64,000 nt of DNA from a virus: the IMG/VR virus record IMGVR_UViG_3300025141_000072, positions 1 through 64,000 of that record. One strand, 5' to 3'. The notes under the pieces were generated by a model. The model ran no database searches. It saw only the letters and a list, made by a program, of their open reading frames with translations, and was not told the origin of the DNA. Below are positions 8,904 through 30,214 of the stretch, piece by piece; position 1 is the first letter of the stretch; each line of letters begins with the position of its first letter. A program made the translations under genes and the position numbers.

Positions 8904-9249
8904 CGTCTTCTCCATTCTGCGACGCGAGGTCGCTCAACTTGTCGATGTACAGCCACCCAGGACCGTTGCCCTCGGGGTCTTGGCTGCTGTCCACGATGTA
9001 CGGGTCCACACGTCCCGCGTTGATGTCCGCGTGTGTTGAGCCGATCGGCGCGAGCACCAGCCGCTGCGTGAGCGCTTCGGCGCCGAAGCTGCCGTTGTCG
9101 TGCTCGAGCGTCATCACGTCGACGACCATGTACCCGATCAGCGGCTTGAGCCGCTCCTCGTGGAACTTGGCCCCGCGACGCAGCCGCTCGGCGTGCGACG
9201 TGCCGCGCGCGTTCACGCAGTTGCCGCCGCTGCCGCCACTGCCGCCCAT
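8896..9249 (-). CDS. Hypothetical protein
   Basis: 117 residues. A Gly/Ser-rich N-terminus precedes a domain with LKPLIGYMVVDVMTLEHDNG and QRLVLAPIGS, then an acidic tail. ATG 9249 overlaps the upstream TGA (ATGA). Function unknown. Confidence 0.65.
   Translation of the reverse strand: MGGSGGSGGNCVNARGTSHAERLRRGAKFHEERLKPLIGYMVVDVMTLEHDNGSFGAEALTQRLVLAPIGSTHADINAGRVDPYIVDSSQDPEGNGPGWLYIDKLSDLASQNGEDDE
8904..8933 (-). promoter_or_regulatory. Stem-loop/Shine-Dalgarno leader
   Basis: On the minus strand GCGAC-CTCGC-GTCGC is followed by AGAATGGAGAAG; 15 nt separate stem and ATG 8903. The stem lies inside the 3' end of the upstream coding region, so it is both coding and structured. Confidence 0.55.
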
Positions 9250-9755
9250 CAGTCGTACACCACGCGCGCGATCTTCACGGTCAGCGCGTTGCGGTCCAAG
9301 ATCAGCTTGCCGCGATCACTCGGCTCTTCGCCTTGCCACTCGATCTCACCGCTGAGGTGGTAGCCCCGCGGCGCGAGGACGTGGTGGACGATCCACTGGA
9401 GCCACTCCTCGTAGTCGTAGAACTTCTCGCCACCGTCCCAACCGATGTGCAGCCGGTCGTCCGACGGCACCCACTGGCACCACGGACCCGGTTGCCCGTG
9501 CGGTGCCGCTTCGGGCTCGAGGACCGAAGCGTCCCGCTCCTGACCGTAGACCCCGCCACCGTGGACGTAGTACGCGCCGTCTCGGCCCCAGGTCTCGAAG
9601 CCGAAGGACGAGTGGTCCGCGTCCGGCGCGGGCAGCTTCGATGTGTCGCGCGCCATGCGCCGCGTCTTCGCGAGCTTGCACAGGAACGCGTACGTCTCGT
9701 CGTCGAGCGGACGGTCCAACGTGAACTCGCCCTCGAAGTCTGTCTGGTATCCCAT
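9249..9755 (-). CDS. Conserved hypothetical protein of the GYxTxFxGxF type
   Basis: 168 residues. It begins GYQTDFEGEFTLDRPL and contains QPGPWCQWVP, WDGGEKFYDYEEWLQW and APRGYHLSGEIEWQGE. I recognise this as a widely distributed bacterial and phage family of unknown function with exactly these blocks. The start overlaps nothing; a short CTTCG-GAT-CGAAG stem precedes it but without a Shine-Dalgarno. Confidence 0.75.
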   Translation of the reverse strand: MGYQTDFEGEFTLDRPLDDETYAFLCKLAKTRRMARDTSKLPAPDADHSSFGFETWGRDGAYYVHGGGVYGQERDASVLEPEAAPHGQPGPWCQWVPSDDRLHIGWDGGEKFYDYEEWLQWIVHHVLAPRGYHLSGEIEWQGEEPSDRGKLILDRNALTVKIARVVYD

Positions 9756-9760
9756 CGCGG

Positions 9761-10114
9761 TTACTTCGATCCGAAGCTGAGCAGCGCCGGGTTCAGCACG
9801 CCGCCGCCTTCGTTGGCGCGCTCGCCCTCATCACCAAGCTGGGTGTCGAGGTTGTGCCACCGGCGCAGCTCCTCTCCGTGCTCCCAGACGTGCGAGAGCG
9901 TCGACACGGCCGCGCCGTACATGAACCCCGTGATGCCCTCGGTGTCCGCGGCGCGCCCGGTACGCTGCGCGCACGAGGCGAGCGTCTCGCCCGCGTCCAT
10001 CGCCGCCTCCATCGCGTCTGCCCAGCGCTTTGCGTACACGTACACGGCGCGGCCGTACGGGTCGGTGTTGTTGGCGAGTCCCCGCTCCCAACCGGCTTTG
10101 TCTTTGAACTTCAT
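9761..10114 (-). CDS. Conserved hypothetical phage protein
   Basis: 117 residues. MKFKDKAGWERGLANNTDPYG followed by VYVYAKRWADAMEAAM is typical of a small conserved family in phages and bacteria with helical content. A strong AGAAGGAG precedes ATG 10114. It is the first gene after the Mom-like gene and has its own leader. Function unknown. Confidence 0.75.
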   Translation of the reverse strand: MKFKDKAGWERGLANNTDPYGRAVYVYAKRWADAMEAAMDAGETLASCAQRTGRAADTEGITGFMYGAAVSTLSHVWEHGEELRRWHNLDTQLGDEGERANEGGGVLNPALLSFGSK

Positions 10115-10142
10115 CGTTGTCTCCTTCTGCGGCCTAAGCCGC
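10115..10142 (-). promoter_or_regulatory. Stem-loop/Shine-Dalgarno leader, stop codon in loop
   Basis: On the minus strand GCGGC-TTAG-GCCGC is followed by AGAAGGAG, with 14 nt between stem and ATG 10114. The TAG stop of the Mom-like gene lies in the loop, so a terminating ribosome would cover the hairpin. Confidence 0.6.
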
Positions 10143-10949
10143 GGCGCCGTACTTCGGGTACGGCTCCGAAAAGGCTGAGAGCTTCCGCGCAACTCTGCGC
10201 TTCAGCCCCCAGCAGTAAACGTGATTACCGGGGTGTCGTTGTCGTCGGACGCTGGGTGACGCGAGCACGCGCTCCACGTACGCCCGATCTCCCTCATGCG
10301 GCGCCTTCGCAGGGCAGCCTGCATCGAGCAGCTGCGCGTACGCGTAGCCAGCTCCGCGCTCGCCCAGTCGGATCTTCGACAGCGCCCGCTGCGAGATGAC
10401 GCTGCCGTCTGGCGCGAACGTCAGCGTGCGTCGAGACCCTCGACCCCGATACACGCCGTTGGTCGCCTGGTAGATGATGCCGAGGTGCCCCGGCTTGACG
10501 ATCTGCCCGTCCGAAGTGCGCCTCTCGATCGGGTCCGCGTACGAGACGACGCCGTCGATGTCCGGGCGCTCCGCACGCATACGCGCGAAGCACTGCCCGA
10601 TGAACCACGACTCACCGTTGCGGCGCACGTGATCGAGCAGCACGAAGCGGCCGAGCTCCACGCCGGCCAGCGCGTCCACGCCGAGCCAGCGCGGCACCAC
10701 CCGCTGCTGAGCTGGGACGCTGAACACGGCCACTCCGACCAAGCGCGGCACCCCAAGCCGTGGCGCCTCGAACAGCCCGTACCGCAACCGAGCAGCGGGG
10801 TACGTCCCGCTGTAGTGGTGCTGCTGCACGAATGCCTTGGCGGTCGCCTCGTCAACGGGCAGCACCTCGTGGCGACCAGGCTCGAAGCGGCAGTCCACCG
10901 CGGGCCGGAACGACTCGCGCCGGTCCCGCCAGCGCTGTGTCGCCGTCAT
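10134..10949 (-). CDS. mom: Mom-like adenine DNA modification protein
   Basis: 271 residues. The order of motifs fits the Mom family of GNAT-like enzymes that convert adenine in phage DNA to N6-carbamoylmethyl-adenine: AFVQQHHYSGTYP near 39-51, LVGVAVFSVP near 70-79, ELGRFVLLD near 98-106, a DGVVSYADP near 132-140, GHLGIIYQATNGVYRG near 154-169 and a basic C-terminal WGLKRRVARK. In Mu this modification protects DNA from restriction. ATG start immediately follows the upstream stop. No Com-type regulator was identified, though zinc-ribbon proteins are present nearby. Confidence 0.82.
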   Translation of the reverse strand: MTATQRWRDRRESFRPAVDCRFEPGRHEVLPVDEATAKAFVQQHHYSGTYPAARLRYGLFEAPRLGVPRLVGVAVFSVPAQQRVVPRWLGVDALAGVELGRFVLLDHVRRNGESWFIGQCFARMRAERPDIDGVVSYADPIERRTSDGQIVKPGHLGIIYQATNGVYRGRGSRRTLTFAPDGSVISQRALSKIRLGERGAGYAYAQLLDAGCPAKAPHEGDRAYVERVLASPSVRRQRHPGNHVYCWGLKRRVARKLSAFSEPYPKYGAAA

Positions 10950-11234
10950 CTACACGTCCTCCTCAAAGTACGACGTCGTGTACGTCCACTCGGCGAGCTC
11001 CAGGCAGTGCGCACCGAACTCCGTGACGGCCGTGACGTCGAACAGGAACGCCTCACGCGCAGGACCCGGCGCCGGCACCTCATCCGGCAGTGGATGAATC
11101 AGCGCGCGCTTCTCCATCGCCCGCAACACGCGCATGTCCCAGCGCCACGTGGCGTCCGAGCCTCGGTAGCCGCTCTCGATGTCGAGGATTGTCCACAGCT
11201 GCGGCCGCGACAAGCGGATGGCCGGTTGCGCCAT
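10950..11234 (-). CDS. Hypothetical protein, possible winged-helix
   Basis: 94 residues. Helical N-terminal part (SRPQLWTILDIE, WDMRVLRAMEKRALIHPL) followed by a strand region (EAFLFDVTAVTEFG) looks like a small winged-helix fold, though this is only a guess. ATG 11234 overlaps the upstream stop (ATGA) and its own stop abuts the Mom-like start. It may act with that gene. Confidence 0.6.
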   Translation of the reverse strand: MAQPAIRLSRPQLWTILDIESGYRGSDATWRWDMRVLRAMEKRALIHPLPDEVPAPGPAREAFLFDVTAVTEFGAHCLELAEWTYTTSYFEEDV

Positions 11235-11638
11235 CAGGAGTCGCGGTCCTTTGGGCGTAGCTCGACAGTCGCAGCCGGAGCCGGAACCAGCAGGCCGTGC
11301 TCCGTCGATGACGGCGAGTCCGGCACCGTGGCGTCCGGCAGCTTGTCCGGCCGCGTCATGTACCGCGACAGGTCCGGGTACGCCGGCCCCACCACCGACG
11401 GGATCTGCCGTGCGACGGGTACAGGCTGCGGCGTCGTGACGCGCGTCTGCATGCTGCGGATGGCCGCCTTGATGCGCCGGTTCTCGTCGGCGATCTCCCG
11501 GAGTGACCGAGCGGTCGCCCGCGCCTCGTCCTCCTGGCGCTCTCGGCGCTCTCGGCGCTCCGTTCGCCACGTCTGCACCCCCGCCCCGAAGAGCGTGCTG
11601 GCGACGACCACTGCGAGAATCGATAGTCCGATGAACAT
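11234..11638 (-). CDS. Single-pass membrane protein with cytoplasmic coiled coil
   Basis: 134 residues. Residues 1-22 form one transmembrane helix (FIGLSILAVVVASTLFGAG). Next comes a highly charged Arg/Glu coiled coil to about residue 70, then a Pro-rich tail. AAAGGA precedes ATG 11638. It neighbours two other short membrane proteins, one of them superinfection-immunity-like, so it may belong to an exclusion module. No family recognised. Confidence 0.7.
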   Translation of the reverse strand: MFIGLSILAVVVASTLFGAGVQTWRTERRERRERQEDEARATARSLREIADENRRIKAAIRSMQTRVTTPQPVPVARQIPSVVGPAYPDLSRYMTRPDKLPDATVPDSPSSTEHGLLVPAPAATVELRPKDRDS

Positions 11639-11669
11639 GATGTGTCCTTTCTGGCCAGACTCGCTGGCC
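11639..11669 (-). promoter_or_regulatory. Stem-loop/Shine-Dalgarno leader
   Basis: On the minus strand GGCCAG-CGAGT-CTGGCC is followed by AGAAAGGAC, with 14 nt between stem and ATG 11638. It starts a new coupled group. Confidence 0.6.
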
Positions 11670-11673
11670 GGTT

Positions 11674-11775
11674 CTACTTCTTCCCCAAGAGTTGCAAGAG
11701 CAAGACAAGTTGCACAAGCGACAGCACGAGCAGCATGCTGACGACCGCGTCGGCACTGGGCCACTCGAGTGTCAT
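11674..11775 (-). CDS. 33-residue single-transmembrane protein
   Basis: ATG 11775 overlaps the TGA of the superinfection-immunity-like gene (ATGA). A nine-residue polar start is followed by a Leu/Val-rich transmembrane helix (MLLVLSLVQLVLLLQLLG) and KK before TAG. The tight overlap and the clean hydrophobic helix argue that it is expressed. Function unknown. Confidence 0.6.
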   Translation of the reverse strand: MTLEWPSADAVVSMLLVLSLVQLVLLLQLLGKK

Positions 11776-11975
11776 TTGCGCTCCTCGAGCAGTGACCAGA
11801 CGAGCGCGCCGAGCCAGATGACGCCCGTCCAACCGCCGAGCAGGTTGAGCACGAAGATGGCCGTCGTGTTTCGGTGCTTGCGGTAGCCGGCGACGATCGA
11901 CGGCAGGAAGTACGTCAGCAGTGCGAGCGCTAGGAGAATGATCCCGAGGATCGGGTTCCCTGACTCGCTACCCAC
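11772..11975 (-). CDS. Superinfection-immunity-like membrane protein
   Basis: 67 residues with two transmembrane segments: GIILLALALLTYFLPSIVA and FVLNLLGGWTGVIWLGALVW. LPSIVA..RKHRN and NLLGGWTGIGW-type wording is characteristic of the superinfection immunity family (T4 Imm-like), small inner-membrane proteins that block DNA entry of a second phage. The exact partner here is unknown. It overlaps genes on both sides. Confidence 0.8.
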   Translation of the reverse strand: MGSESGNPILGIILLALALLTYFLPSIVAGYRKHRNTTAIFVLNLLGGWTGVIWLGALVWSLLEERK

Positions 11976-13098
11976 GGATCACGCTCCGGAAGTCTGACGC
12001 CGGCCGAGTCCCGGACGGCCGCACCGTCTCCTCACCGAGCCCCGCGTTCGGCGTCGTCACCAGCTTCGCGGCCAGGTCGTGGACCCGCGCCGCGTCGTGG
12101 ACCGGCGTGTCCGGCGCCGGTAGCACCGGAGCCTGCGGCGCTCCGTTGCCCAGCCCCTGCGGCGCGTACGTGTCCGCTGGACGAACGGTCTCGGCGCCCG
12201 CGACCTGGCCGGTCACGGCCGACCGACCCAAGAGCGTCTCTCTTTGTCCCGATGCGTCCGTCAACGCGCGCCGATGCGCAGCGTCCTCCGCAGTCTCGGG
12301 CCGCAGCACGATCTCGCCAGGCTCCACGGGCGTCATCGGGTCTGGGTGCGGGTGCGGGATGAACTCGTCCGGGACTTCGTGGATCGTTGGCTCTCCCATC
12401 TCGATGGACGCCGTTGTAACGGAGGGCGTGGTCGTCTTCGTCTTCGTCGGCGTCACCGCCGCATCCGCACGTTCCTGCTTGGTCTGGATGTGGTGATGAT
12501 CCAGCCGCGATCCGTGCTCGGTGATGCGCCCGACGTAGTCTCGTTCGTGCCTAGCCTCCTGCCGAGGCGTGTACGGACCGACGACCTGGTCGCGGTCGAA
12601 GTCCGCCTCGAAGTACGAGTCGCCAACGGTCTTTGCTGCCGGGTCGTCACCACCCGCGACGCCGAGCAGATCGACCAGCGACTTCGTTAGCAAGCCGGCT
12701 CCGGCGATGAGCGTGCCTGCGCCGACGGCCGTGCCCCACGCAGGGATCGTAGCGACGGCGCCAGTTGCCGCGACGACGCCGCCGACGACGCCGATAGCCC
12801 CGACCGCTACGCCGGTGATCGCTGTGGCCAGCGCCTTGGTCTGAGCCACGGGCGATGCGTCCGGCCAGCCCCCGTGGTCCTGGAAGCGGTCCGCCGTCGG
12901 TGCCGAGACCGCCGACGCAGGCTCGGCGACCGAGACGCTACCGCGCCGGCTGAACGCGTCCACGCGCCGGTCCTCCGTGTCGTGCCCAGCTGCCGGGTCG
13001 ACAGTAGACGCGAGCGCCTCGGCCGCCGCTGGTGCTTCGGACGCCGTCGTCGCGGACGACGCGCGCGGCAGGGTGTAGTTGGGTGCTTTGATGCTCAT
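11968..13098 (-). CDS. Hypothetical membrane-inserted protein
   Basis: 376 residues. A low-complexity Ala-rich N-terminus precedes a Gly/Ala/Val-rich hydrophobic block at about residues 85-145 that could form a membrane hairpin (ITGVAVGAIGVVGGVVAATG, then GAGTLIAGAGLL). The C-terminal half is polar, His/Pro-rich and probably disordered. CGGAG precedes ATG 13098. It heads the group with the immunity-like protein. No family recognised. Confidence 0.65.
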   Translation of the reverse strand: MSIKAPNYTLPRASSATTASEAPAAAEALASTVDPAAGHDTEDRRVDAFSRRGSVSVAEPASAVSAPTADRFQDHGGWPDASPVAQTKALATAITGVAVGAIGVVGGVVAATGAVATIPAWGTAVGAGTLIAGAGLLTKSLVDLLGVAGGDDPAAKTVGDSYFEADFDRDQVVGPYTPRQEARHERDYVGRITEHGSRLDHHHIQTKQERADAAVTPTKTKTTTPSVTTASIEMGEPTIHEVPDEFIPHPHPDPMTPVEPGEIVLRPETAEDAAHRRALTDASGQRETLLGRSAVTGQVAGAETVRPADTYAPQGLGNGAPQAPVLPAPDTPVHDAARVHDLAAKLVTTPNAGLGEETVRPSGTRPASDFRSVIRG

Positions 13099-13174
13099 GT
13101 CAGGCTCCGTTGCAGCTCACGTGCCGAACGCGCGGGCCAGCTTGTACGGACAGAAACACTGTAACGTGTAACAC

Positions 13175-13190
13175 CACTGCACGTGCAGTG
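13175..13190. promoter_or_regulatory. 16-bp palindrome in the gap upstream of the 13098 gene
   Basis: CACTGCACGTGCAGTG is a perfect palindrome inside the 110-nt gap 13099-13208. Next to it GTAAC occurs twice within 13161-13172. It may be an operator or promoter region for the membrane-protein group; no convincing -35/-10 pair was seen. Confidence 0.45.
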
Positions 13191-13208
13191 CACGGCAGGT
13201 AGCCCATG

Positions 13209-13580
13209 CTAGGAGTCCGCACACTTCATCGGCATCGTCCGCTGACCGTGCCAGTGGCGCAGCCGTGTCCCTTCGCGCTCGGCCATCCGCTGCAGCATCG
13301 GCCGGATGCGATCGAGCCAGACCTCCATGGCCACGTCCTCGAGGTTAGCGTCGTCGTCGCCCAACCGCGCTGCGTCCGCCTGTCGCATCGGCACGGTCAG
13401 CTCGATCGCGACGCGCCACGCGTTCGCACCCTTGTACGACACAGGCGACGCCGCTTGCCGCCGCTCGAAGTGCAGCGCGCCGTAGCCGATGTTGTCGTGG
13501 CACTGCGACCCGGCACGCGCTCCGCAACGCGGGCACGCCACGTCGATCGCGTCGGCCGGCACAGGTGTACGCTCGCTCAT
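13209..13580 (-). CDS. Phage zinc-finger protein
   Basis: 123 residues. The N-terminus reads VACPRCGARAGSQC...HFERR, the CxxCxxxxGxxC...H pattern of the short zinc finger common in phage proteins and thought to bind nucleic acid. The rest is helical. ATG 13580 overlaps the upstream TAA by one base (TAATG). Function unknown. Confidence 0.72.
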   Translation of the reverse strand: MSERTPVPADAIDVACPRCGARAGSQCHDNIGYGALHFERRQAASPVSYKGANAWRVAIELTVPMRQADAARLGDDDANLEDVAMEVWLDRIRPMLQRMAEREGTRLRHWHGQRTMPMKCADS

Positions 13581-14035
13581 TATTCGAGCGCTCCGGGCAC
13601 GAAGCGCGACAAGGCCGCCTCGACGTCCCCCGCGTCCGGCGAGCCGCGCCAGTCCATGAACAACCGCACGCGCTTCGACGGGTTGCCCGAGCCCTTCGCT
13701 CCCGGCTTGCGTCCAGCCTTGGCCGCCCTCCGCATGATCTCGTTGGCGAGCTCCGCAGGCGCAGCCTGCTCGATCAGCTTCTCGCACGCCCGTCGGTCGA
13801 GCAGCGTCCGCTCAGCCGCGGGCCAGTCGGCCGCCGTCCGCGAGGCCAGCTCCACCTTGCGCGGCAGGCCCAGGCCGGGCAGTCGGCGGCACAGCAGCCG
13901 CAGGCCCCGAGCGTACTCGGCGTTCCGCGTCTTGCCCGAGCCCGCTCGGGCATGGAACACGACGGTCAGGCCGAAGCGCGACGGCTCCACGGTGAACGTG
14001 GCGTCCACGAGCTGCCCGTCCTCGAAGATGCGCAC
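13580..14035 (-). CDS. Hypothetical protein resembling an accessory domain of type IV restriction proteins
   Basis: 151 residues from GTG 14035. Blocks LTVVFHARAG, RNAEYARGLRLLCRRL and a C-terminal GNPSKRVRLFM recall a domain I remember next to HNH or McrA-type modules, with RxxxYxxGLxLLxxRL and GNxxKRxR signatures. No nuclease motif is present, so it may only bind DNA. Assignment is tentative. Confidence 0.6.
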   Translation of the reverse strand: MRIFEDGQLVDATFTVEPSRFGLTVVFHARAGSGKTRNAEYARGLRLLCRRLPGLGLPRKVELASRTAADWPAAERTLLDRRACEKLIEQAAPAELANEIMRRAAKAGRKPGAKGSGNPSKRVRLFMDWRGSPDAGDVEAALSRFVPGALE

Positions 14036-14036
14036 G

Positions 14037-14594
14037 CTAGTTCGCCCCGGGCGCGTCGACGAACTGCGCCATGTGGTTGGCGAAGTGCCGGATGATGCGG
14101 AGCCGGTCGCGCGCGTTCATCGCGGCCAGTTCGTGGTTCGGCACGATCCGGACGCGCCGCTCCCAGCTCTGCAGGTACACGGCCCAGTACGTGACGCTGC
14201 CGTCCTTGTGGCACGTCGGCGCGATACTGTTCGGCCGGACGGCGACGCGCGTCGGCGCTGTCGCCGGCATCCCAGGCTCCACCATGTCGTGCGCCCCCTC
14301 CGCGAAGAAGTGACCCTGGCACTCCGCGTTGGCCGAGGGCCCCTTGTACTCGGGCGGCGAGCCCGCCGCCTTCCAGCACGCCTCGTGGTACACGGTGCCT
14401 CGCATCGGGTAGCCGATGTCGCCACCCGCTGCGCCCATGACGCGGCCGTAGCCGTCGTACGAGCCGACGAGCGGAGACTTGCGGCCGTACTTGATCACGA
14501 CCACCTGATTCATCCAGGCGTTGATGCGGTTCGTCGCGTGCGGTGCGAGCATCGGATGCCCACAGCACTCGCAGTTGTAACTGAACAGACCCAT
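14037..14594 (-). CDS. Conserved hypothetical phage protein with CxxC
   Basis: 185 residues. GLFSYNCECCGHPML at the start, then GSYDGYGRVMG, GTVYHEACWKAAGSP and ECQGHFF. This block order is familiar from conserved uncharacterised phage and bacterial proteins. Paired cysteines suggest a structural zinc site. ATG 14594 has AAGGAG upstream. Function unknown. Confidence 0.72.
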   Translation of the reverse strand: MGLFSYNCECCGHPMLAPHATNRINAWMNQVVVIKYGRKSPLVGSYDGYGRVMGAAGGDIGYPMRGTVYHEACWKAAGSPPEYKGPSANAECQGHFFAEGAHDMVEPGMPATAPTRVAVRPNSIAPTCHKDGSVTYWAVYLQSWERRVRIVPNHELAAMNARDRLRIIRHFANHMAQFVDAPGAN

Positions 14595-14626
14595 GACGTT
14601 TACTCCTTTGTGGCGCTCTGTGCGCC
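14595..14626 (-). promoter_or_regulatory. Stem-loop/Shine-Dalgarno leader
   Basis: On the minus strand GGCGC-ACAGA-GCGCC is followed by ACAAAGGAG, with 17 nt between stem and ATG 14594. The stem and the Shine-Dalgarno lie inside the last codons of the upstream gene, whose TAA follows the Shine-Dalgarno. Confidence 0.6.
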
Positions 14627-15076: not shown

Positions 15077-15438
15077 GCCGTGTCCTCCAGCTCAGCTGAG
15101 GTCGAAGCGGCGGCCGGCCGGGACACATAGCCGCTCTCCAGCAAGTGCAGACCACAGATGGCCGAGCGCATACGCTGCCACCAGAGGTGAAACTGCGTTA
15201 CCGGTGAGGTGGAGTCGGTCCACCCGACCGGGAGCCCCTGCAAGACTTCCGTGAAGGTGGGGTTGAGCAGCGGCTGGCCATTGCGCCCAGTCGCCGACCC
15301 GTCCGGCACGGGGAGGATATAGAGCACGTCGGTCAGCGTCCAACCAGCGTGGTGCCGAGACTCCGCTCCACGGGTCCGGTTGCAAGTCGCGTTGCGTGAC
15401 GCCCGAGCGTCCAGCGCCGTCGGCGTGGGCCAGTACAA
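15073..15438 (-). CDS. Overlapping-frame protein resembling the GWT/target-recognition part of phage methylases
   Basis: This frame, +1 relative to the methyltransferase, encodes YWPTPTALDARASRN, HHAGWTLTDVLYILP and LLNPTFTEVLQGLPVGWTDS, wording I know from the target-recognition stretch of phage cytosine methylases (WPTPTA ... LNPxFVExLMGxPxGWT). It ends in an ATGA overlap with the next gene. The start is uncertain: TTG 15438 after AAGGGCGAG gives 121 residues, but entry by ribosomal frameshift from the methyltransferase frame near 15440 is equally possible. It overlaps 347 nt of the methyltransferase gene. Confidence 0.6.
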   Translation of the reverse strand: MYWPTPTALDARASRNATCNRTRGAESRHHAGWTLTDVLYILPVPDGSATGRNGQPLLNPTFTEVLQGLPVGWTDSTSPVTQFHLWWQRMRSAICGLHLLESGYVSRPAAASTSAELEDTA

Positions 15439-15973
15439 AGAGCCGCGCTCGCCCTTGAGAGGCGCCAACCGCAAATGCGTCGACGACGATCGACGCGGTC
15501 CGGTATCCGAGACGTCCGAGGTCCGAGACGATGACGCCGAACGCTTCGTTGTCTTCGAGCGCCGGGACGTTCTCGAGGAAGACCCAGCCGGGCTCACACT
15601 CTCCGATGATGCGCTTGGCGTGCGGCCACTGCCATCGGGGGTCGGCGACGCCCCGGGCAGCGGCAAGGTCACGACGGTTGCCAGCTCGGCTGAAGGGCTG
15701 GCACGGGATGCCCGCAGTGACGAGATCCACGACGCCACGCCACGGTCGGCCGTCGAAGGTGGCAAGCTCATCCCAGACAGGAGCCGGTGCCATGGCCTCG
15801 TCTTCCATCCGCGCCACGAGAGCGGCCGCGGCGCTGTCTTGCCGCTCGACAAAGCACACAGCGTGGGCTCGGGGGTCACAGAGTCGGACGCCGAGCTCGA
15901 GTCCGCCGATACCGGCACAGAGTCCGAGGACCCGTGGTCCGCTGGCACGTACAGAGCTGGCACGTACAACCAC
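15092..15973 (-). CDS. Cytosine-5 DNA methyltransferase (Dcm-type)
   Basis: 293 residues from GTG 15973, with GGGAGGA upstream; the longer frame has no further domain. Motif I LGLCAGIGGLELG is at 16-28, the catalytic GIPCQPFSRAG at 88-98 (Cys91), ENV at 134-136, motif VIII GASQGRARLFVLA at 170-182, and motif X RVDRLHLTGNAVSPLVA at 250-266. It transfers methyl from SAM to cytosine C5. The recognition region between VIII and X is short, and the same DNA encodes a target-recognition-like protein in another frame. Likely protects phage DNA from restriction. Confidence 0.88.
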   Translation of the reverse strand: MVVRASSVRASGPRVLGLCAGIGGLELGVRLCDPRAHAVCFVERQDSAAAALVARMEDEAMAPAPVWDELATFDGRPWRGVVDLVTAGIPCQPFSRAGNRRDLAAARGVADPRWQWPHAKRIIGECEPGWVFLENVPALEDNEAFGVIVSDLGRLGYRTASIVVDAFAVGASQGRARLFVLAHADGAGRSGVTQRDLQPDPWSGVSAPRWLDADRRALYPPRAGRVGDWAQWPAAAQPHLHGSLAGAPGRVDRLHLTGNAVSPLVAAYALGHLWSALAGERLCVPAGRRFDLS

Positions 15974-17042: not shown

Positions 17043-17076
17043 GTTATGCCTCTCTTTCTGCCGAGCAGCGCTCAGC
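17043..17076 (-). promoter_or_regulatory. Stem-loop/Shine-Dalgarno leader
   Basis: On the minus strand GCTGAGC-GCT-GCTCGGC (7 bp, one G-U) is followed by AGAAAGAGAGG, with 17 nt between stem and ATG 17042. The element lies inside the 3' end of the upstream gene. Confidence 0.55.
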
Positions 17077-19431: not shown

Positions 19432-19782
19432 ACTCGTATCCTTTCTGGGGGCGTCGCCCCCGGTAGCGAGTGAGGGCTCAGCGCTCTCGCGCATGCCCTC
19501 CTCGCTGAAGCACCATCCGGTGACGGTGCGAATCGTGAGTGCTGCAGCGTTAGGCAGGAACGACAGCCCACCGTGCGCTGCTGGCGAGCACTTGCGGCAC
19601 ACGATCTTCGAGAAGACCAGCTTGCCTCCGTGCTCGACGTCGATCGACTGCGACCGGTGCGCATCGAGGATGCCCTTGCACCGAGCGCAGAACATCTGCA
19701 TCCCGACGAAGCCGCGATGCGCCTCGAACTCGATCATCGAGCCGACGCTGCCGACTTCCGTGCCCAGCACGCGGTCTGTCAT
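18466..19782 (-). CDS. Possible long form of the clamp with N-terminal zinc ribbon
   Basis: A second start, ATG 19782, overlaps the upstream gene by ATGA and is in the same frame as the clamp with no stop between. It adds 117 residues containing MFCARC...IVCRKCSP, a zinc-ribbon-like pair. The leader stem-loop and Shine-Dalgarno of the clamp are read in-frame as GGDAPRKDTS. Either both isoforms are made, or a stop codon has been lost. Confidence 0.5.
   Translation of the reverse strand: MTDRVLGTEVGSVGSMIEFEAHRGFVGMQMFCARCKGILDAHRSQSIDVEHGGKLVFSKIVCRKCSPAAHGGLSFLPNAAALTIRTVTGWCFSEEGMRESAEPSLATGGDAPRKDTSMNEEETATPTGLTVADAKKLCGALRRAQYSVSWSDDRLNLRAFRVERDMGGEDAVIVTTDGHRLTVARVTGLRLPRDWSVPLTNKRELRTLVTMPTAMLSALADADRAWAEPDRRGQSTFSRQSFPDWRQVVPSSHAWSTKVMTASLKEALAESVKALKERYVTRRETYDGRVLEHRATVKAAMAACKDAREGEGRPNAMEYRKLTVAKDAAKADAKKHREAAPSKIHRVAVVVHPDSTALDTCVKDRKARRVETFDSSGSCTVGLNTSFLLDALKACGAGDGSTTIEGNDELAPVRVYSDLADGFMVVMPMRPEKDEDDS
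19432..19461 (-). promoter_or_regulatory. Stem-loop/Shine-Dalgarno leader of the clamp
   Basis: On the minus strand GGGGGC-GAC-GCCCCC is followed by AGAAAGGAT, with 15 nt between stem and ATG 19431. Unlike other leaders it is embedded in an uninterrupted reading frame. Confidence 0.6.
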
Positions 19783-22186: not shown

Positions 22187-22405
22187 CTAAGCCGTCACCT
22201 CGATGCGCACCGCGCACTCGAGCCGGGCCGCCATGGCCCTCGCCGCCTTGGCCTGGCGGCGGAACTGTTCGCTGAGGCTGCCCATATCAGGCCCGAGGGC
22301 GAGCCTGTTGTACTCGTCGGCCGCTACGGCCAACGCATGGATGAGCGTCCAGCGCTCATCCTCGGTCAGCGCGCAAGGCGCCTTCGTCATTGTTGTGTCA
22401 GTCAT
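22187..22405 (-). CDS. Small helical hypothetical protein
   Basis: 72 residues, mostly helical (EDERWTLIHALAVAADEYNRLAL, FRRQAKAARAMAARL). GAAGGAAGC precedes ATG 22405. It starts a group behind its own leader. Function unknown. Confidence 0.63.
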   Translation of the reverse strand: MTDTTMTKAPCALTEDERWTLIHALAVAADEYNRLALGPDMGSLSEQFRRQAKAARAMAARLECAVRIEVTA

Positions 22406-22431
22406 GCTTCCTTCAATCTGCCCTTGCGGGC
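22406..22431 (-). promoter_or_regulatory. Stem-loop/Shine-Dalgarno leader with GNRA loop
   Basis: On the minus strand GCCC-GCAA-GGGC, a GNRA tetraloop, is followed by AGATTGAAGGAAG; 14 nt separate stem and ATG 22405. Confidence 0.55.
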
Positions 22432-24458: not shown

Positions 24459-24459
24459 G

Positions 24460-24678
24460 CTACAGCCCCTCCCGGTACACGAAGCGGCCCGCGACCAGGT
24501 CCTCCGACGTCTCGGCGACGGCGAACTTGGTGCAGTACGTCCGCGCTCGCACGAGCTCGACGGCGTCCGCAGGCGTAGGCGCCTTTGCACGACGCACACG
24601 GAACACAGACGAGGTCGACAAGTCGCGGCGCTTTGGCGCCTGCCCGGCCACGAACCACACGGCAGTGCCGCCGCTCAC
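24460..24678 (-). CDS. Small hypothetical protein
   Basis: 72 residues from GTG 24678, which overlaps the stop of a 48-codon frame (GTGA). TAVWFVAGQAPKRRDLS and a helical C-terminus. A longer frame to 24726 exists but the overlap favours the shorter one. Confidence 0.57.
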   Translation of the reverse strand: MSGGTAVWFVAGQAPKRRDLSTSSVFRVRRAKAPTPADAVELVRARTYCTKFAVAETSEDLVAGRFVYREGL

Positions 24679-24821
24679 GAGAGACGAAGCCTCATGCCCG
24701 TACGCAGCATCGGCAGCACGAGCCACCGGTGCCAGCGGGACCGACGAGGCAGCGCACGACTCAGCTCCAAGCCGAGATCGTGCAACGCCACACCGACCAC
24801 ACGCGCGATCCGGCGACGCAT
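24675..24821 (-). CDS. 48-residue Arg-rich protein
   Basis: ATG 24821 follows the upstream TAG by 3 nt, and TGA overlaps the next GTG. The product is strongly basic (RRRIARVVG, PRRSRWHRW). It fits the spacing of the chain but could be incidental, because the frame is short and GC-rich. Confidence 0.45.
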   Translation of the reverse strand: MRRRIARVVGVALHDLGLELSRALPRRSRWHRWLVLPMLRTGMRLRLS

Positions 24822-24824
24822 GGG

Positions 24825-25091
24825 CTACGACTCCTCCGGCGGCAGGTGCGACCAGATGTCTTCGATGAGCACGTCGTCCTCGCTGTAGAGTACGGGCACC
24901 TCATACCGATCGCCGTAGTTGCCGGTCACGACGTGGTAGTCATGCAACTCGGTCCACCCCGACGGGCGGAACTCGACCGTGCAGTCGTAGTAGCTCGTCC
25001 GCCAACAGCGCGTGCTGTCTCCGTCTGCGGTGAAGCAGCGGAAGACGCGGACCTCGGCATCGTACGCTTCGGCCACGACCTGGGCGGTCAT
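24825..25091 (-). CDS. Hypothetical acidic protein
   Basis: 88 residues from ATG 25091. Beta-rich (AEVRVFRCFTADGDSTRCW, DCTVEFRPSGW) and ending in an acidic helix. One nt after the upstream TAG. Function unknown. Confidence 0.6.
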   Translation of the reverse strand: MTAQVVAEAYDAEVRVFRCFTADGDSTRCWRTSYYDCTVEFRPSGWTELHDYHVVTGNYGDRYEVPVLYSEDDVLIEDIWSHLPPEES

Positions 25092-25092
25092 G

Positions 25093-25293
25093 CTACGACT
25101 CCTCCGTCGGCACGTGCGCAGCGAACACGCGAGCGAACGCAGCTTGCTGAGCAGCCCGGCGCTCACGCACGTCGGACGCGACGGCGTCCTGCACCACCAC
25201 GTGCTCGCTGCCGCGCACACGAGTGCGCGTGCCCGAGCCGACCACGGCCTTGCGCTTCGCCCAGCGGGCGGCGCGATCGCGACGAGTCGTCAC
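25093..25293 (-). CDS. Small basic hypothetical protein
   Basis: 66 residues from GTG 25293 (GTGA overlap). Arg/Lys-rich N-terminal half, then a helix (RERRAAQQAAFARVFAAH). Possibly nucleic-acid binding. Function unknown. Confidence 0.58.
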   Translation of the reverse strand: MTTRRDRAARWAKRKAVVGSGTRTRVRGSEHVVVQDAVASDVRERRAAQQAAFARVFAAHVPTEES

Positions 25294-25514
25294 TGCGACG
25301 ACCTCAGCTCACGCGCCACGTCGTGCGCAGCGTTCGACGCCGTGTCGTAGTCGACACCATCGGCCACGAGCTGGCCCTGCTCGGCCACGCCCGCGCGCAG
25401 CTCCGCATCGGCCACGTGGCCAGCCGGCCACACGTGCACGTGCACCTCGCCGGTGACGTCGTACACGACCGCGGACGTCCACTGGCCGTCGAACACGTCG
25501 ACGCCGCCGCTCAC
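25290..25514 (-). CDS. Small hypothetical protein
   Basis: 74 residues from GTG 25514 (GTGA overlap). Beta-rich first half (SAVVYDVTGEVHVHVWPAG), helical second half. Function unknown. Confidence 0.58.
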   Translation of the reverse strand: MSGGVDVFDGQWTSAVVYDVTGEVHVHVWPAGHVADAELRAGVAEQGQLVADGVDYDTASNAAHDVARELRSSQ

Positions 25515-25735
25515 AGCAGCACCGCCTTGCGGTCGAGGACCACCGGCCCCAGCCCGAACAGCATCGGGCGCTCGCGCACCACGTGGCCCCCGTCGGGGAG
25601 CCGGAACGTGGCCACGTCGGCCCCGTTCCGGTGGTGCCGGCTCACCAGCACCGCGCCGGGCTCCAGGCCGAACATCGCGGCCACGCTGCGCTGCGCGCGC
25701 TGCTTGCGCGCGCGTCGTCGCGCGTTGCCGTTCAT
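25511..25735 (-). CDS. Small basic hypothetical protein
   Basis: 74 residues from ATG 25735 (ATGA overlap). Arg-rich N-terminus (RRRARKQRAQR) then a beta-rich domain (GAVLVSRHHRNGADVATFRLP). Function unknown. Confidence 0.6.
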   Translation of the reverse strand: MNGNARRRARKQRAQRSVAAMFGLEPGAVLVSRHHRNGADVATFRLPDGGHVVRERPMLFGLGPVVLDRKAVLL

Positions 25736-26628
25736 CGCGACACCTTCACGCCGAAGTCGAGGGCCAACGCCTCGAGCGCCGTCCGCTCGAACTCGCGGCG
25801 CTCGGCCTTCTCGGCCGCGAGCCGCTTGGCCTCGGCGCGGGCGGCCTTGGCCTCGGCGCGACGCGCGCCGTCGACCAACGCCTGGGCCTTGCGACCCAGC
25901 TCCGCGGCCTCGCGGAGCAGCGCGACCTTCTGGTCGCGCCGGGTGCGACCCAGCCGGGCCTTGGCCCGGAGCTGGACCGCCTTGGCCCGCAGTTCCTTGA
26001 CCGCGGCCGTCCGCTCCTCCACGGCCTCGGCGCAGTGGTCGGCCCACTGCTCCTGCCGCGCCTTGCGGCTTGCGGCCTCGGCCGCCTGGGCGGCCAGCGC
26101 GCGGGCCTCGTCGCTCGCGTCGGCCACGATGCTCGCGACCTCGACCTCGCGCTCGGCGATGTCCCGGAGCTCAGCAGCCCCGGGCGCATCCGGCCCGGTC
26201 AACGGCGTGTCCAACGCCCGACGGACCGCCTCGACATCCCCGGCGGCCTTGAACCGGCCACCGGCCCCGCGGCCAGCGACCTGGCCAAAGGCCACGGCCG
26301 CAGCATGGCCGATCTGCCGGTCCGCCTCGGCGCGGACGGCCTGCTTCGCGCCGTCCAACGCAGCGAGGTCGCCCTTCGCCTCGGCCACGAACGAGCGCAT
26401 CTCGCTCGTGGCCGCCTTGGCCTCCGCGACTTCAGCAGCGAGCGGGGCGATGTCGCCCCGCGCCGCCGCGGCTCGCGCCTTCAGCGCCCCCAAGGGGAAT
26501 GAGGACTCGCGAACCTTGCGTGCTTCGTCGCGCTGCTGGCGCCGTTCGGCGCTCTCGCGTCGAGCGCTCTCACGCTCAGCGCGACGGTCGCCGCGCGCCG
26601 TCTTCCGGCCATTCTTCTTGCGTGCCAT
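25732..26628 (-). CDS. Large Ala/Arg/Glu-rich coiled-coil protein
   Basis: 298 residues from ATG 26628, with ACGGAGG upstream. The N-terminus is Arg/Lys-rich; almost the whole length is charged helix with heptad-like Ala/Leu spacing, broken near residue 125 by a Gly-rich GRGAGGRF. No enzymatic motif. It could be a scaffold or DNA-organising protein, but this is inference. Confidence 0.7.
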   Translation of the reverse strand: MARKKNGRKTARGDRRAERESARRESAERRQQRDEARKVRESSFPLGALKARAAAARGDIAPLAAEVAEAKAATSEMRSFVAEAKGDLAALDGAKQAVRAEADRQIGHAAAVAFGQVAGRGAGGRFKAAGDVEAVRRALDTPLTGPDAPGAAELRDIAEREVEVASIVADASDEARALAAQAAEAASRKARQEQWADHCAEAVEERTAAVKELRAKAVQLRAKARLGRTRRDQKVALLREAAELGRKAQALVDGARRAEAKAARAEAKRLAAEKAERREFERTALEALALDFGVKVSR

Positions 26629-26658
26629 GGTGGCACCTCCGTTGTGGGGCAAAGCCCC
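26629..26658 (-). promoter_or_regulatory. Stem-loop/Shine-Dalgarno leader
   Basis: On the minus strand GGGGC-TTT-GCCCC is followed by ACAACGGAGG, with 17 nt between stem and ATG 26628. Upstream of the stem it shares ATCACCGGGGC with the leader of the 27045 gene. Confidence 0.6.
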
Positions 26659-26847
26659 GGTGATGTTTGTCCGCTGGGAGCGAGGTCACCGCGTGCGGAC
26701 TCGACGCGGTGACCATGACGGCAGGACTGCCGCCCACGTGTGCTCACGAGTGCATGCTGCACTCATGCCCACACGTGGACAGCGCCACCGACAGCGTGAG
26801 CTGCCGATGGCGCGTCCCTTGGCTACGACAGTCGGACTAGGCGGGAC
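26659..26847 (-). other. Intergenic stretch with tandem stem-loops
   Basis: No gene was found. GGTCACCGCGT at 26684-26694 pairs with ACGCGGTGACC at 26704-26714. A nested cruciform follows: CCACGTGTG 26734-26742 with CACACGTGG 26770-26778, enclosing GAGTGCA 26748-26754 with TGCACTC 26758-26764. A third, imperfect GCGCCA/TGGCGC stem lies further on. The order suggests a structured leader or non-coding RNA on the minus-strand transcript. Confidence 0.5.
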
Positions 26848-27045
26848 CTAGGCGGTGAGGCGCTCGGCCAGCGCCACGACCTTCTTGTTGAGGTTGCGGC
26901 ACTCGGCGGGCGTGCGCGCCCCGTACGAGGCGACCTGCGTAGTGCCGTCGAACACCTGGATCCAGCGGCCGTGGGTGCGCAGGCCGAAGCCGTAGCCGGT
27001 GGCGGTGCTGTCGAGGTTGTACTTCTTGATGATGTAGGACGCCAT
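26848..27045 (-). CDS. Small hypothetical protein
   Basis: 65 residues from ATG 27045 with AAAGGGAG upstream. IIKKYNLDSTATGYGFGLRTHGRWIQVFDG suggests a compact beta domain, then a basic helix. Stands alone behind its own leader and is followed by tandem stem-loops. Function unknown. Confidence 0.65.
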   Translation of the reverse strand: MASYIIKKYNLDSTATGYGFGLRTHGRWIQVFDGTTQVASYGARTPAECRNLNKKVVALAERLTA

Positions 27046-27076
27046 GGTTGGCTCCCTTTCTGGGGCTACTCGCCCC
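27046..27076 (-). promoter_or_regulatory. Stem-loop/Shine-Dalgarno leader
   Basis: On the minus strand GGGGC-GAGTA-GCCCC is followed by AGAAAGGGAG, with 16 nt between stem and ATG 27045. Confidence 0.6.
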
Positions 27077-27159
27077 GGTGATCGACCCACCGAAATGGCA
27101 GGTCGAAAGCGTGAAGTTGTAGGTGGTAGGCCCAGCGAGCCGGGCTTAGCGCGCGTCAG

Positions 27160-27369
27160 TTAGCGGGCGCTCTCGGCCCCGACGCCCGCGCGCCCTCGGC
27201 CCCAGCTTGCGCTGTCCAGGGCGAGCCCGTACTCGTCGAGCAGGCTGGCCAGCCCATCCGGGCAGGCGTCCGCGTCGAGCGGGGCGTCGGCGCTGTGTCG
27301 GTGCGGCGACGGCAGGACAGGCTCAAAACCTGCCGCCACGCCCTCTCGTGCCTCGTGTGCGTCGTACAT
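27160..27369 (-). CDS. Small hypothetical protein
   Basis: 69 residues from ATG 27369; GTG 27378 is also possible. No Shine-Dalgarno, but it closely follows the upstream stop at 27381. Asp/Ala/Pro-rich sequence without motif. Function unknown. Confidence 0.52.
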   Translation of the reverse strand: MYDAHEAREGVAAGFEPVLPSPHRHSADAPLDADACPDGLASLLDEYGLALDSASWGRGRAGVGAESAR

Positions 27370-27380
27370 GACGGACACGG

Positions 27381-27830
27381 CTAGCGCCCCCTGGCCACGG
27401 GCCACAGCTCGGACAGTTCAACGGCCAGCTCGACGCGCTGGCCACGGTGGCGCTTGTCGAGGCGGACGGTCGCTTCGCCGTTCAGCCTGCGGACGGACGC
27501 GACGCGCCCCGTCCGCCCGTCGGCGAGCGCCACACGCTGGCCCCTGGCCACCGGCGCGGACCTTGTGCGGATCACACGACTCTCGGCCGTGCGGCTGGCC
27601 ACGGCGTCGAGCTTGGCGAGCTCCGGCTCGAGGGGGCCAGCGTCCCACCCGGCCCCCTTGGCGGTGCGCGAGCCGCCACTGGCGCGAACGCGGACTTCAC
27701 CAGTGGCGTTCGACAGCAACCGGCCACGAGGGTGGCGCGGACCCTCGGTCGGCTTCGGCCGGGCGCCGCGCTTGAAGGTCCACCCGGTGGACGGGTGGAC
27801 CTGTGTCTCATTCCAGCGGCCACCGCTCAT
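27381..27830 (-). CDS. Hypothetical basic protein with SH3-like C-terminus
   Basis: 149 residues. Basic, Gly/Arg-rich N-terminal half (GRWNETQVHPSTGWTFKRGA). The last ~45 residues (QRVALADGRTGRVASVRRL..ATVRLD) resemble small SH3-like beta barrels in nucleic-acid-binding proteins. ATG 27830 overlaps the upstream TGA. Confidence 0.62.
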   Translation of the reverse strand: MSGGRWNETQVHPSTGWTFKRGARPKPTEGPRHPRGRLLSNATGEVRVRASGGSRTAKGAGWDAGPLEPELAKLDAVASRTAESRVIRTRSAPVARGQRVALADGRTGRVASVRRLNGEATVRLDKRHRGQRVELAVELSELWPVARGR

Positions 27831-28063
27831 GCCGCGGCCTCGGCCTGTGCCTCGGCGATCAGCGCCGCGAACGGCGTCACGGCGGGCTCCGGCCGGTCGA
27901 ACACGGTGTGCAACACGGCGTCGAAAGCCTCGAACGTCTCGGCCAGCACGACGGTCTCGCCCGGAGGCAGAGCCGCCGGCTTGGGCGTGATGTGGGAGCC
28001 GCACTCCGGCACGGGGGCCGGAGCGAGCAGCGCTATGCGGTGTGCGTAGTCAGCGAGGGTCAT
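27827..28063 (-). CDS. Small helical hypothetical protein
   Basis: 78 residues from ATG 28063 (ATGA overlap). Helical, with ETVVLAETFEAFDAVLHTVF in the middle. A longer frame upstream to 28554 starts after GGGGAGGTG but overlaps the next gene completely and looks unlike protein. Function unknown. Confidence 0.6.
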   Translation of the reverse strand: MTLADYAHRIALLAPAPVPECGSHITPKPAALPPGETVVLAETFEAFDAVLHTVFDRPEPAVTPFAALIAEAQAEAAA

Positions 28064-28374
28064 CGTGCGACTCCCGCGAAGACGCAGGCGGCGCGCAACG
28101 GCGCGTGCGTCTCGTGGTTCTCGGCCTGCAATCGACGACGGGCGACCGGCCAGGTCGTCTGGTGGCACCACAGCGGCAGGGGCGCGAGTCCCTGCTCGCG
28201 CCGCCACTGATCGTAGGAGGCGGCGGACACGTGGCTGCGAAGCGCCACGGCCTCGGCCACGAGCGTGCGGTCCGCGTCGAACGCGCGGTCCGGACCGTTG
28301 GCTTTGATGTCGGCCAGCCACGGCTCTAGCCTGTCCGAGAAGGTCGGGCTCTTGTTGTTGATCCAGTCCATCAT
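28060..28374 (-). CDS. Hypothetical helical protein
   Basis: 104 residues from ATG 28374 (or 28371). MMDWINNKSPTFSDRL, then VAEAVALRSHVSAASYDQWRR and a C-terminal helical region with two cysteines. TTGGATCC lies upstream. First gene of the long chain that runs left. Function unknown. Confidence 0.63.
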   Translation of the reverse strand: MMDWINNKSPTFSDRLEPWLADIKANGPDRAFDADRTLVAEAVALRSHVSAASYDQWRREQGLAPLPLWCHQTTWPVARRRLQAENHETHAPLRAACVFAGVAR

Positions 28375-28405
28375 CGAAGGATCCAATCTGGGGCGCGCTG
28401 GCCCC
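28375..28405 (-). promoter_or_regulatory. Stem-loop/Shine-Dalgarno leader
   Basis: On the minus strand GGGGC-CAGCGC-GCCCC is followed by AGATTGGAT, with 15 nt between stem and ATG 28374. Confidence 0.55.
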
Positions 28406-29461
28406 GGTGGCCACGAGCCGCTGGCTCGCGGGCGTGCGTGTGGGGGCTGGCCATCCTGGCCACTGGCCACGGGCCGCGCGCACGGGCACGCGGGTGGCCA
28501 CAGGCAACGCGCACGGCCAGGGGTCGAACCTGGCCATCACCTCCCCTCCAACGGGGCGTGCGCACGAACCGGCCAGTGGCCAGGGGCTCAGGCTTTGTAC
28601 TTCTCTGAGCTGGTTCCCTGGCCACGAGCACGACGGCGCACGAGCATGCGCGCGGGTGTCCGGGCTCCTACGCTCGGCCGGTCTCCCGGCCGCTGACGTC
28701 CGTGTCATTGCGAGCTACTGGTGAAGTCCGGCGGTTCCGACTGGCGGAATCGCCGGGCCGCAGTCAGACGTCGCTGCGTACCCCGAACTGCGAACGCGCG
28801 CCCATGCCCTAGCATGGTGCGTCGTCTCGGTTCGTAAGGTGCGCCGCTCCCGGTTCCGGTTGGCCGGTCCCCCATGCTCGTTCGCGTATGGGTCGGAAGC
28901 GTTGCACCTCTACCGCAGTCAAGCGGCTGTCGCCCTAGCGCCGATGGCGCATGGTAAGGCGTGCCTATGCGGGTGTGACGGACAAGCGGACGGGATGCCG
29001 TCGGCTTGATGGTGTTGACCGTATCCGCAGTGATGCGCGCGCTAGCAGGCGCTAGCGCGGTGCGGTGTCGGTTCTCGTCGCGGGGTTGCGTGCCCTAGGC
29101 GCACGCAATGTGTCGCCCCGTACCTAGTTCTCCCGCGAACCCAACGTCCGCGACCTTGCTTGCCATTTGTTCGGCGCGTTGCTCCTTGCTGCGCAGAAAA
29201 GCACGGACGGCTTGGCTCGGTCGGTTGTCGCTGGATTCGAGAACGGATGCCCATGGTCAGCCCCGGTGCACGTGCCGATCTGCAACGCGCGCAACGCCCG
29301 GGTCCTAGTGCATCGAATGTAAAAGAGCGTGATCGGCGCGTTCTGTGCGGCTACGGTGCACTGTGCTTTGCCCAAGGGTTCCGGTCGGCTTATGGTAGGG
29401 TCGGTTGTCCGAGTGACCTACCCGCGTCGGGGTTGGGCTAGGCGCGACAGAACGAGCAAGT
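28406..29461. other. About 1.1 kb with no convincing gene; TGGCCA-rich at one end
   Basis: No frame on either strand looks like protein. The first 250 bp are crowded with TGGCCA/GGCCAC hexamers. Short hairpins occur, for example TTGCGTGC 29086-29093 with GCACGCAA 29101-29108. On the minus strand a T-arm-like CCAGG-TTCGACC-CCTGG lies near 28512-28528, but no complete tRNA can be folded around it. It separates the long left operon from the 30131 gene. Confidence 0.5.
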
Positions 29462-29491
29462 GCGGGCGGTAGGTGCGACCCTACCGCCCGC
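29462..29491 (-). terminator. Strong hairpin after the 29514-30131 gene
   Basis: GCGGGCGGTAGG at 29462-29473 pairs with CCTACCGCCCGC at 29480-29491, 12 bp with a 6-nt loop. It lies 22 nt beyond the stop codon on the minus strand. There is no clear U-tract (CACTTGCTC follows), so it may stabilise or process the 3' end rather than terminate on its own. Confidence 0.5.
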
Positions 29492-29513
29492 GGTCCTGCG
29501 GTCCTGTCGCGCG

Positions 29514-30131
29514 CTAGGCGCTCGCCTGCGCGTCCGCCTTCGCCTTCGCCGCTTCCGCCTTCACCGTGGCGTTGCGCGCCTGCCTACCGGCGCTGCGTGC
29601 CTTGCGGCTGAGGCGCTTGTCGCCGGTCCGGTCCGCCTTGCTCTGAAGCGCCGACGCGCTACCCGCGAGACACTGGAGCATGCTCAGACACAGCGACACG
29701 CGCAGGCTGGTCAGCCGCTTGGCGACGTTGGTCGCCTTGGGCGTCTTGCCCGAGGTACCCGCCACGGTGATGACGTCGATCGACGCACCCGAGCGGAAGT
29801 AGAACGCCTTGCCGGGCTTGCCGGAGTACTCGCTGCGTGCGTCCTGCGCGTCCATGTCGCAGGCGCACACGCCGTACGTGCGGTCGAACCCGCCCTGCGC
29901 GACGGGGCGCACCTTGATCGACTTGGCGATCGAGATGATCAGCCCCATGAGTACGTCCGCCCCGTCCGCGTCGTTCCGCGCCGCGATCTGGGCCCTCGTG
30001 ACGGGCTTGTCGAGGACGGCGGACACGTCCGCGTCCGTGAACACGGCCAAGTCCAGGGTAGGGTTGAGCGGCGCGTCGGCGGTCCCGATGGCGCGGTCGG
30101 TCGTGGCGTTGGTGTTCTTGTTCGTGGTCAT
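29514..30131 (-). CDS. Hypothetical protein, first gene of the left arm
   Basis: 205 residues from ATG 30131. Thr/Asn-rich N-terminus, then LDLAVFTDADVSAVLDKPVTRAQI, a central beta-rich part (GASIDVITVAGTSGK) and a long basic Ala/Lys C-terminal helix. It stands alone, bracketed by a leader and a hairpin, nearest to the divergent control region, so it may be expressed strongly and early. No family recognised. Confidence 0.7.
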   Translation of the reverse strand: MTTNKNTNATTDRAIGTADAPLNPTLDLAVFTDADVSAVLDKPVTRAQIAARNDADGADVLMGLIISIAKSIKVRPVAQGGFDRTYGVCACDMDAQDARSEYSGKPGKAFYFRSGASIDVITVAGTSGKTPKATNVAKRLTSLRVSLCLSMLQCLAGSASALQSKADRTGDKRLSRKARSAGRQARNATVKAEAAKAKADAQASA

Positions 30132-30214
30132 GGTCGTTCCGATCTGCCCTGTGCGGGCGGTTTGCGTGCTACGGGCGGACCGCGCCGTGGGTCCGTATGA
30201 CCCGCGGCGCGTCC
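30132..30214 (-). promoter_or_regulatory. Leader of the 30131 gene with two stem-loops
   Basis: On the minus strand GCCC-GCACA-GGGC (30146-30158) is followed by AGATCGGAAC, with 14 nt between stem and ATG 30131. Further upstream 30177-30193 pairs with 30199-30214 as a long GC stem with one bulge. Confidence 0.55.

Follow-up and report, generated by a model that had tools for sequence, protein, structure and literature searches.

The window analysed here is a stretch of 64 kb out of a 66,039-base IMG/VR virus record (IMGVR_UViG_3300025141_000072), with a guanine plus cytosine (GC) content of 68%. Its plus strand encodes a terminase, a portal protein, a protease and a major head protein distantly like that of SPO1-type phages, and its early genes lie on the minus strand, at ~1 to 30 kb. 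Our subject is a leader element that precedes eleven of these early genes (each named by its start position) and has the layout ACC - G(stem)loop(stem)C - A[GC]A - GGA - ATG, that is, a small hairpin directly upstream of the Shine-Dalgarno (SD) sequence. We found no close cultured relative of the phage. The nearest record, G001, is 99.9-100% identical from position 30173 onward, and two others, G003 and G002, are about 68-86% identical over the aligned parts of the window.

Anatomy of the leaders

The eleven leaders, followed by two that are loosely related, are as follows.

30132-30158, minus strand: leader of 30131, ACC-GCCC(gcaca)GGGC-AGATCGGAACGACC-ATG; first gene past the early promoter region
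28375-28405, minus strand: leader of 28374, ACC-GGGGC(cagcgc)GCCCC-AGATTGGATCCTTCG-ATG
27046-27076, minus strand: leader of 27045, ACC-GGGGC(gagta)GCCCC-AGAAAGGGAGCCAACC-ATG
26629-26658, minus strand: leader of 26628, ACC-GGGGC(ttt)GCCCC-ACAACGGAGGTGCCACC-ATG
22406-22431, minus strand: leader of 22405, CCC-GCCC(gcaa, a GNRA loop)GGGC-AGATTGAAGGAAGC-ATG; gap between stem and SD larger than elsewhere
19432-19461, minus strand: leader of 19431, ACC-GGGGGC(gac)GCCCCC-AGAAAGGATACGAGT-ATG
17043-17076, minus strand: leader of 17042, ACC-GCTGAGC(gct)GCTCGGC-AGAAAGAGAGGCATAAC-ATG
14595-14626, minus strand: leader of 14594, ACC-GGCGC(acaga)GCGCC-ACAAAGGAGTAAACGTC-ATG; in the end of the upstream gene
11639-11669, minus strand: leader of 11638, ACC-GGCCAG(cgagt)CTGGCC-AGAAAGGACACATC-ATG
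10115-10142, minus strand: leader of 10114 (Tad4 homologue), GCC-GCGGC(ttag)GCCGC-AGAAGGAGACAACG-ATG; the loop holds the stop codon TAG of the upstream gene
8904-8933, minus strand: leader of 8903, TGA-GCGAC(ctcgc)GTCGC-AGAATGGAGAAGACG-ATG; inside the end of the upstream gene
4798-4837, minus strand: loosely related leader of 4797, GCTCAGTAG(cca)CTACTGAGC-TTCGCAGGAGGACTGCAGA-ATG; 9 bp stem 19 nucleotides (nt) from the ATG, no AGA
Leader of 6999, loosely related: AGAAAGGG; no good abutting stem

When stems were recomputed for every listed start, all eleven had a stem of 4-7 bp with at most one G-U pair, a loop of 3-6 nt and a 3' end 14-17 nt upstream of the start codon, as a sequence-only reading of the window had claimed. 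That reading took the distance from stem to start codon to be the constant one. The range is right, but the fixed distance runs from the stem to the GG of the SD core: it is 5 nt at 8 of the 10 scored sites of the window, at which the stem-to-start distance is less fixed (12-17 nt). Across the four genomes with many copies described below, the 5-nt ruler is found at 8/10, 6/6, 6/10 and 11/11 sites, while stem and start codon are 12-19 nt apart. Nor is it architecture alone that is conserved. Stem letters do change from site to site, but short flanks stay fixed: ACC precedes 8 of the 11 stems (CCC at 22405), A[GC]A directly follows every stem, leaders after the stem read A[GC]A[AT]NGGA, and the stem closes with a pair oriented G-C at all eleven window sites and at 45 of 47 sites overall.

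Stems of this kind are much rarer at other ATGs. On the minus strand of the early region, 22 of 265 other ATGs (8.3%) have one, as do 8.8% of the other minus-strand ATGs that have an SD and 11.7% of plus-strand ATGs; dinucleotide-shuffled leaders carry them at a mean of 1.4 of 14 starts (maximum 5 in 500 shuffles). The sequence-only reading had named comparisons of this sort as a way to refute it, and the element withstands them. The binomial probability of the enrichment is ~4e-10, calculated on 14 starts hand-picked as uncoupled. With an automated classification, the element is present at 9/19 uncoupled and 2/29 coupled starts (Fisher P 0.003). Element-bearing starts are thus mostly uncoupled, although the claim that all eleven genes head coupled groups fails for 8903 and 14594, which start at coupled positions; both are among the sites at which, as had been noted, the stem lies in the coding end of the upstream gene. 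On the minus strand, eight stems have ACC directly before and A[GC]A directly after them, all with an ATG 14-17 nt on; the plus-strand counterpart gave two ACC-stem-A[GC]A matches, neither with a start codon. The element is confined to the early minus-strand genes of the window. The supposed relatives before 4797 and 6999 belong to the set only loosely, the former having a 9 bp stem and another flank.

Predicted hairpin probability averages 0.79 and is low at 11638 (0.15) and 30131 (0.09). The SD is somewhat more open in element leaders (0.49-0.53) than at other starts of the genome (0.39-0.42).

Stem change and spread among phages

The locus of 30131 can be compared between three records. The window reads ACC-GCCC(gcaca)GGGC-AGATCGGA; G003, with a homologous gene, reads ACC-GCCC(cttacc)GGGC-AGAACGGA; and G001 reads ACC-GCGGG(cgatga)CCCGC-AGATCGGA, its promoter region kept and a different gene following, which we take as non-homologous since nucleotide similarity is absent. 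Flanks and shape are therefore constant, and stem or loop varies. To the right of 30173 G001 matches the window, promoter region included, and its first early gene differs; the boundary at 30173 is a sharp recombination boundary (window 30150-30400 against L085:640-900). Two early-gene proteins have no relatives in IMG/VR, so orthologous leaders were limited to those of G001 and G003.

Because MAFFT misaligned short stems of unequal length, we used a descriptor search and pair counting in place of a covariance model. Over the lower four stem pairs of 20 distinct leaders, the covariation score was 0.83, compared with 0.18 when shuffled and at most 0.27 when slid; since the presence of a stem was what these leaders were chosen by, their 100% pairing is no evidence in itself. 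Two tests are free of this bias. The first is a scan that leaves the inner pairs free (ACCGCC-N7-13-GGCAGAAAGGA; 57 distinct matches). Here the fourth pair is standard in 36/57, where shuffling expects 22.4 and reached a maximum of 34 in 2000 shuffles, and given the fourth pair the fifth is standard in 32/36. Inner pairs include A-T besides G-C, and the genomes range down to ~40% GC. The second test chose leaders blind to structure, by A[GC]AA[AG]GG and an open reading frame (ORF) only. An abutting hairpin, in exact register, was present in 4/6 such leaders of the window, 5/8 of G013, 7/15 of G015 and 12/18 of an insertion in G033. By comparison, distant relatives of the head gene of the window gave 3/76, six larger records gave 0/20, and the G033 contig outside the insertion gave 0/7. 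Selection on RNA structure is well supported, and the compensatory stem change on which the sequence-only reading had rested its check does occur.

The three further genomes just named carry many copies, each with different stems: six in G013 (44.7 kb) and about 12 in G015 (55.9 kb), both phages known from metagenomes, and 14 within 16 kb (~65-81 kb) of contig 3 of G033, an Oscillospiraceae assembly. As in the window, every G015 copy is on the minus strand and apart from the terminase gene, which is on the plus strand; nor are the copies near the DNA polymerase and primase genes. Nearly all copies in G033 are gathered in the one 16 kb stretch and none is in the flanking contig, so the element is not a habit of the host there, and we rejected a host-gene feature. 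This stretch (L312, L313) has a lower GC content, and its proteins have no Pfam matches save an amidoligase; it is possibly an undescribed prophage or mobile element.

Searching IMG/VR with ACCGSSSC-N3-6-GSSSC-AGAAAGGA, a pattern that does not demand complementarity, returned 38 contigs. The arms were complementary in 34 of 40 matches, where 1 in 8 would be expected, and 30 of these 34 had an ATG 11-19 nt downstream. Without the ACC condition, GCCGC-N-GCGGC-AGAAAGGA was found in 53 contigs, compared with 10 for the non-complementary control GCGGC-N-GCGGC; an ATG followed at 54/58 matches and ACC preceded 12/58. Three other IMG/VR contigs (L333, L369, L373) have 3-4 leader copies each. In bacterial genomes the excess was weaker (45/105 matches complementary), as expected if many of the matches are prophages, and a few stand before ordinary chromosomal genes. 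Two single chromosomal copies (L211 and L221) are glmS-like at their beginning and may belong to the end of a known riboswitch.

The element is therefore widespread rather than peculiar to the window phage: a conserved, covarying hairpin abuts the SD of early genes in unrelated phages. They span 33-70% GC, and their hosts are probably unrelated. Elsewhere the genes below it include those for major head proteins, ParB-like proteins, anti-repressors and an ArdC-like anti-restriction protein, a mixture from which it follows that no single function is marked. RDJL Phi 1, Delta and RcRudolph, which have a topoisomerase in common with G013, and YuA contain no GGCAGAAAGGA at all.

A proposed module for translation initiation and its alternatives

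We read the element as a cis-acting module for translation initiation at early phage genes, in which a hairpin docked beside the SD duplex would aid de novo initiation, and put the probability of this reading at about 0.5. The standard anti-SD sequence at the 3' end of 16S rRNA is UCCUU, and pairing of AAGGA with it would leave just three nt (AGA) between stem and SD duplex. A short, stable, G-C-closed hairpin with an unpaired ACC-type stretch on its 5' side would in this way end where the duplex must form. The 30S platform would accommodate it unmelted, beside the SD duplex or stacked on it, and once docked it would help to recruit and position the 30S subunit for fresh initiation at genes without coupling to an upstream cistron. 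Two observations bear on the recogniser: the ruler ends at the SD duplex, which points to the 30S platform, and there is no common candidate binding protein, which makes the universal ribosome more likely. In E. coli, hairpins beside the SD can indeed be accommodated on the platform (PMC3936740). The earlier suggestion that the element may set translation thus stands as far as its tie to translation starts; how it would do so we infer. Its recurrence with different stems in unrelated phages points to a common, apparently undescribed way to start translation.

Several results weigh against this interpretation. Chief among them is the E. coli standby-site model, by which a hairpin near the SD is neutral or costly, not helpful (PMC3936740). 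In constrained folding, the SD is unpaired at 0.53 with the hairpin and 0.52 with the arms held single-stranded. A generic spacer hairpin would not call for features as specific as the strict G-C closing pair and the ACC flank. The element was not found on the late plus-strand genes of the window, and many phages do without it. In a gut element (L165, L167, L169, L190), other orthologues of an element-bearing gene have no hairpin, so that its presence is a habit of the genome and not bound to the gene.

A bolder version, which we offer only tentatively, would make this a class of cis-acting RNA that is new and widespread among phages. It would be a hairpin that docks on the ribosome, with the 16S rRNA end in the SD duplex setting its G-C closing pair and AGA linker, and unrelated phages would repeatedly use it on early genes, anti-defence genes included, to capture ribosomes as soon as infection begins and with no phage protein involved. 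If the element works as proposed, structure just upstream of the SD would be not merely tolerated but used by many phages, with a fixed ruler, in starting the translation of early genes. The layout would then serve as a compact descriptor by which early and anti-defence genes could be found when phage DNA is unannotated, and as a portable part for starting translation in the laboratory, and stacking of the hairpin on the SD duplex would become a concrete structural question.

The alternative that survives best, though we consider it rather unlikely, is an element of mRNA processing or stability, in which the hairpin would mark or protect the end between cistrons, blocking 5'-end-dependent decay downstream and 3' exonucleases upstream. 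GC stems with small loops between the cistrons of polycistronic early units would suit such a role. Stabilisers made of a hairpin and an SD occur in Bacillus and its phage SP82; in the STAB-SD and SP82 leaders hairpin and strong SD stand close together, as they do here. Those stabilisers act at transcript 5' ends in Firmicutes, however, whereas most sites here are operon-internal by position. Moreover, a barrier hairpin would not need exactly 5 nt to the SD core, some of the stems fall within the coding end of the upstream gene, and the element also heads the first post-promoter gene (30131).

We think it less probable still that the element is the binding site of a trans-acting phage or host protein, which would read the shape together with ACC, the G-C closing pair and AGA and so throw an early-gene switch. 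The oriented closing pair, the ACC and A[GC]A flanks and the restriction to early genes would fit such a protein, but the loop and inner stem letters are free, and the phages differ widely in GC content and probably in host. A blastp comparison (E<1e-3; remote homologues could be missed) found no protein family common to all four multi-copy genomes, the sole overlap being one weak protein pair between G013 and G015. A phage-coded binding protein is therefore unlikely, and the proposal of a site for a phage regulator is not supported. The same search gave no RNA-binding protein common to these four genomes, as an operator of the RegA, gp43 or coat type would have. The T4 gp43 and gp32 translational operators are likewise RNA hairpins in phage leaders near start codons, but they are single-gene elements in which a phage protein recognises conserved letters of the loop, and the gp43 hairpin lies ~40 nt upstream (PMC3014915).

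We give little credence to a simple structural insulator, a hairpin that would lock local GC-rich sequence and keep the SD single-stranded. The slightly greater openness of the SD in element leaders is what it predicts, but holding the arms open leaves accessibility as before, so that folding lends no support to simple SD unmasking, and the element also occurs in phages of ~40% GC. That the stems are a functionless by-product of GC-rich composition or the remains of terminators is refuted for the set as a whole, though single sites could be chance: such stems do precede 8-12% of random ATGs in a genome of 68% GC, but the stems are enriched, stand in exact register, change with compensation and recur in the structure-blind test, all of which speaks against it, as does the lack of a T run. 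An intrinsic terminator was rejected likewise, the stem being followed not by a U run but by A[GC]A and purines at 11/11 sites.

Among described elements, the claim that none has such a layout holds so far. Rfam gave no match at the curated score in the window (one below-threshold match elsewhere is unrelated to the element), and our literature search found no prior description, though an earlier report in a subscription journal is possible. The closest repeated, start-linked elements found were the SAS and ESAS of Cluster K mycobacteriophages, suspected to act in translation initiation: the SAS sequence is fixed, at 13 bp (GGGATAGGAGCCC), as is the 17-bp repeat consensus of ESAS, whose spacer measures 4-13 bp (PMC3203893). 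They too are repeated just upstream of many starts in one phage genome, some with inverted repeats. No window leader, however, has a sequence resembling GGGATAGGAGCCC 3-8 bp before the start, and in place of 17-bp imperfect inverted repeats of a common consensus we find stems of 4-7 bp with site-specific letters; here structure and short flanks are conserved and stem letters are free. The standby-site module of Espah Borujeni et al. (PMC3936740) is similar in its order of single-stranded distal site, hairpin, short proximal site and SD, and our hairpin is likewise separate from the SD and abuts a single-stranded A[GC]A stretch. That work, however, is a biophysical account of single leaders, whereas here one geometry, with proximal length and closing pair fixed, is repeated genome-wide and across phages.

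Neighbouring genes and other features

Gene 10114 (9764-10114, minus strand), which bears one of the hairpin leaders, encodes a homologue of Tad4, an inhibitor of type I Thoeris (Pfam PF25186, E 1.3e-31). Its upstream neighbour (10137-10949, minus strand) encodes a Mom-like DNA modification protein, and a DNA methyltransferase is encoded at 15092-15961 (minus strand). With these three, the early region looks rich in counter-defence genes. An AT-rich non-coding stretch at 4880-5310 contains GGTGATC / GATCACCAC units repeated in both orientations in the manner of iterons and is a possible origin or regulatory region. ARAGORN calls a tRNA of undetermined type at 26192-26288 (minus strand), inside the ORF at 25735-26628, and this call is probably spurious.

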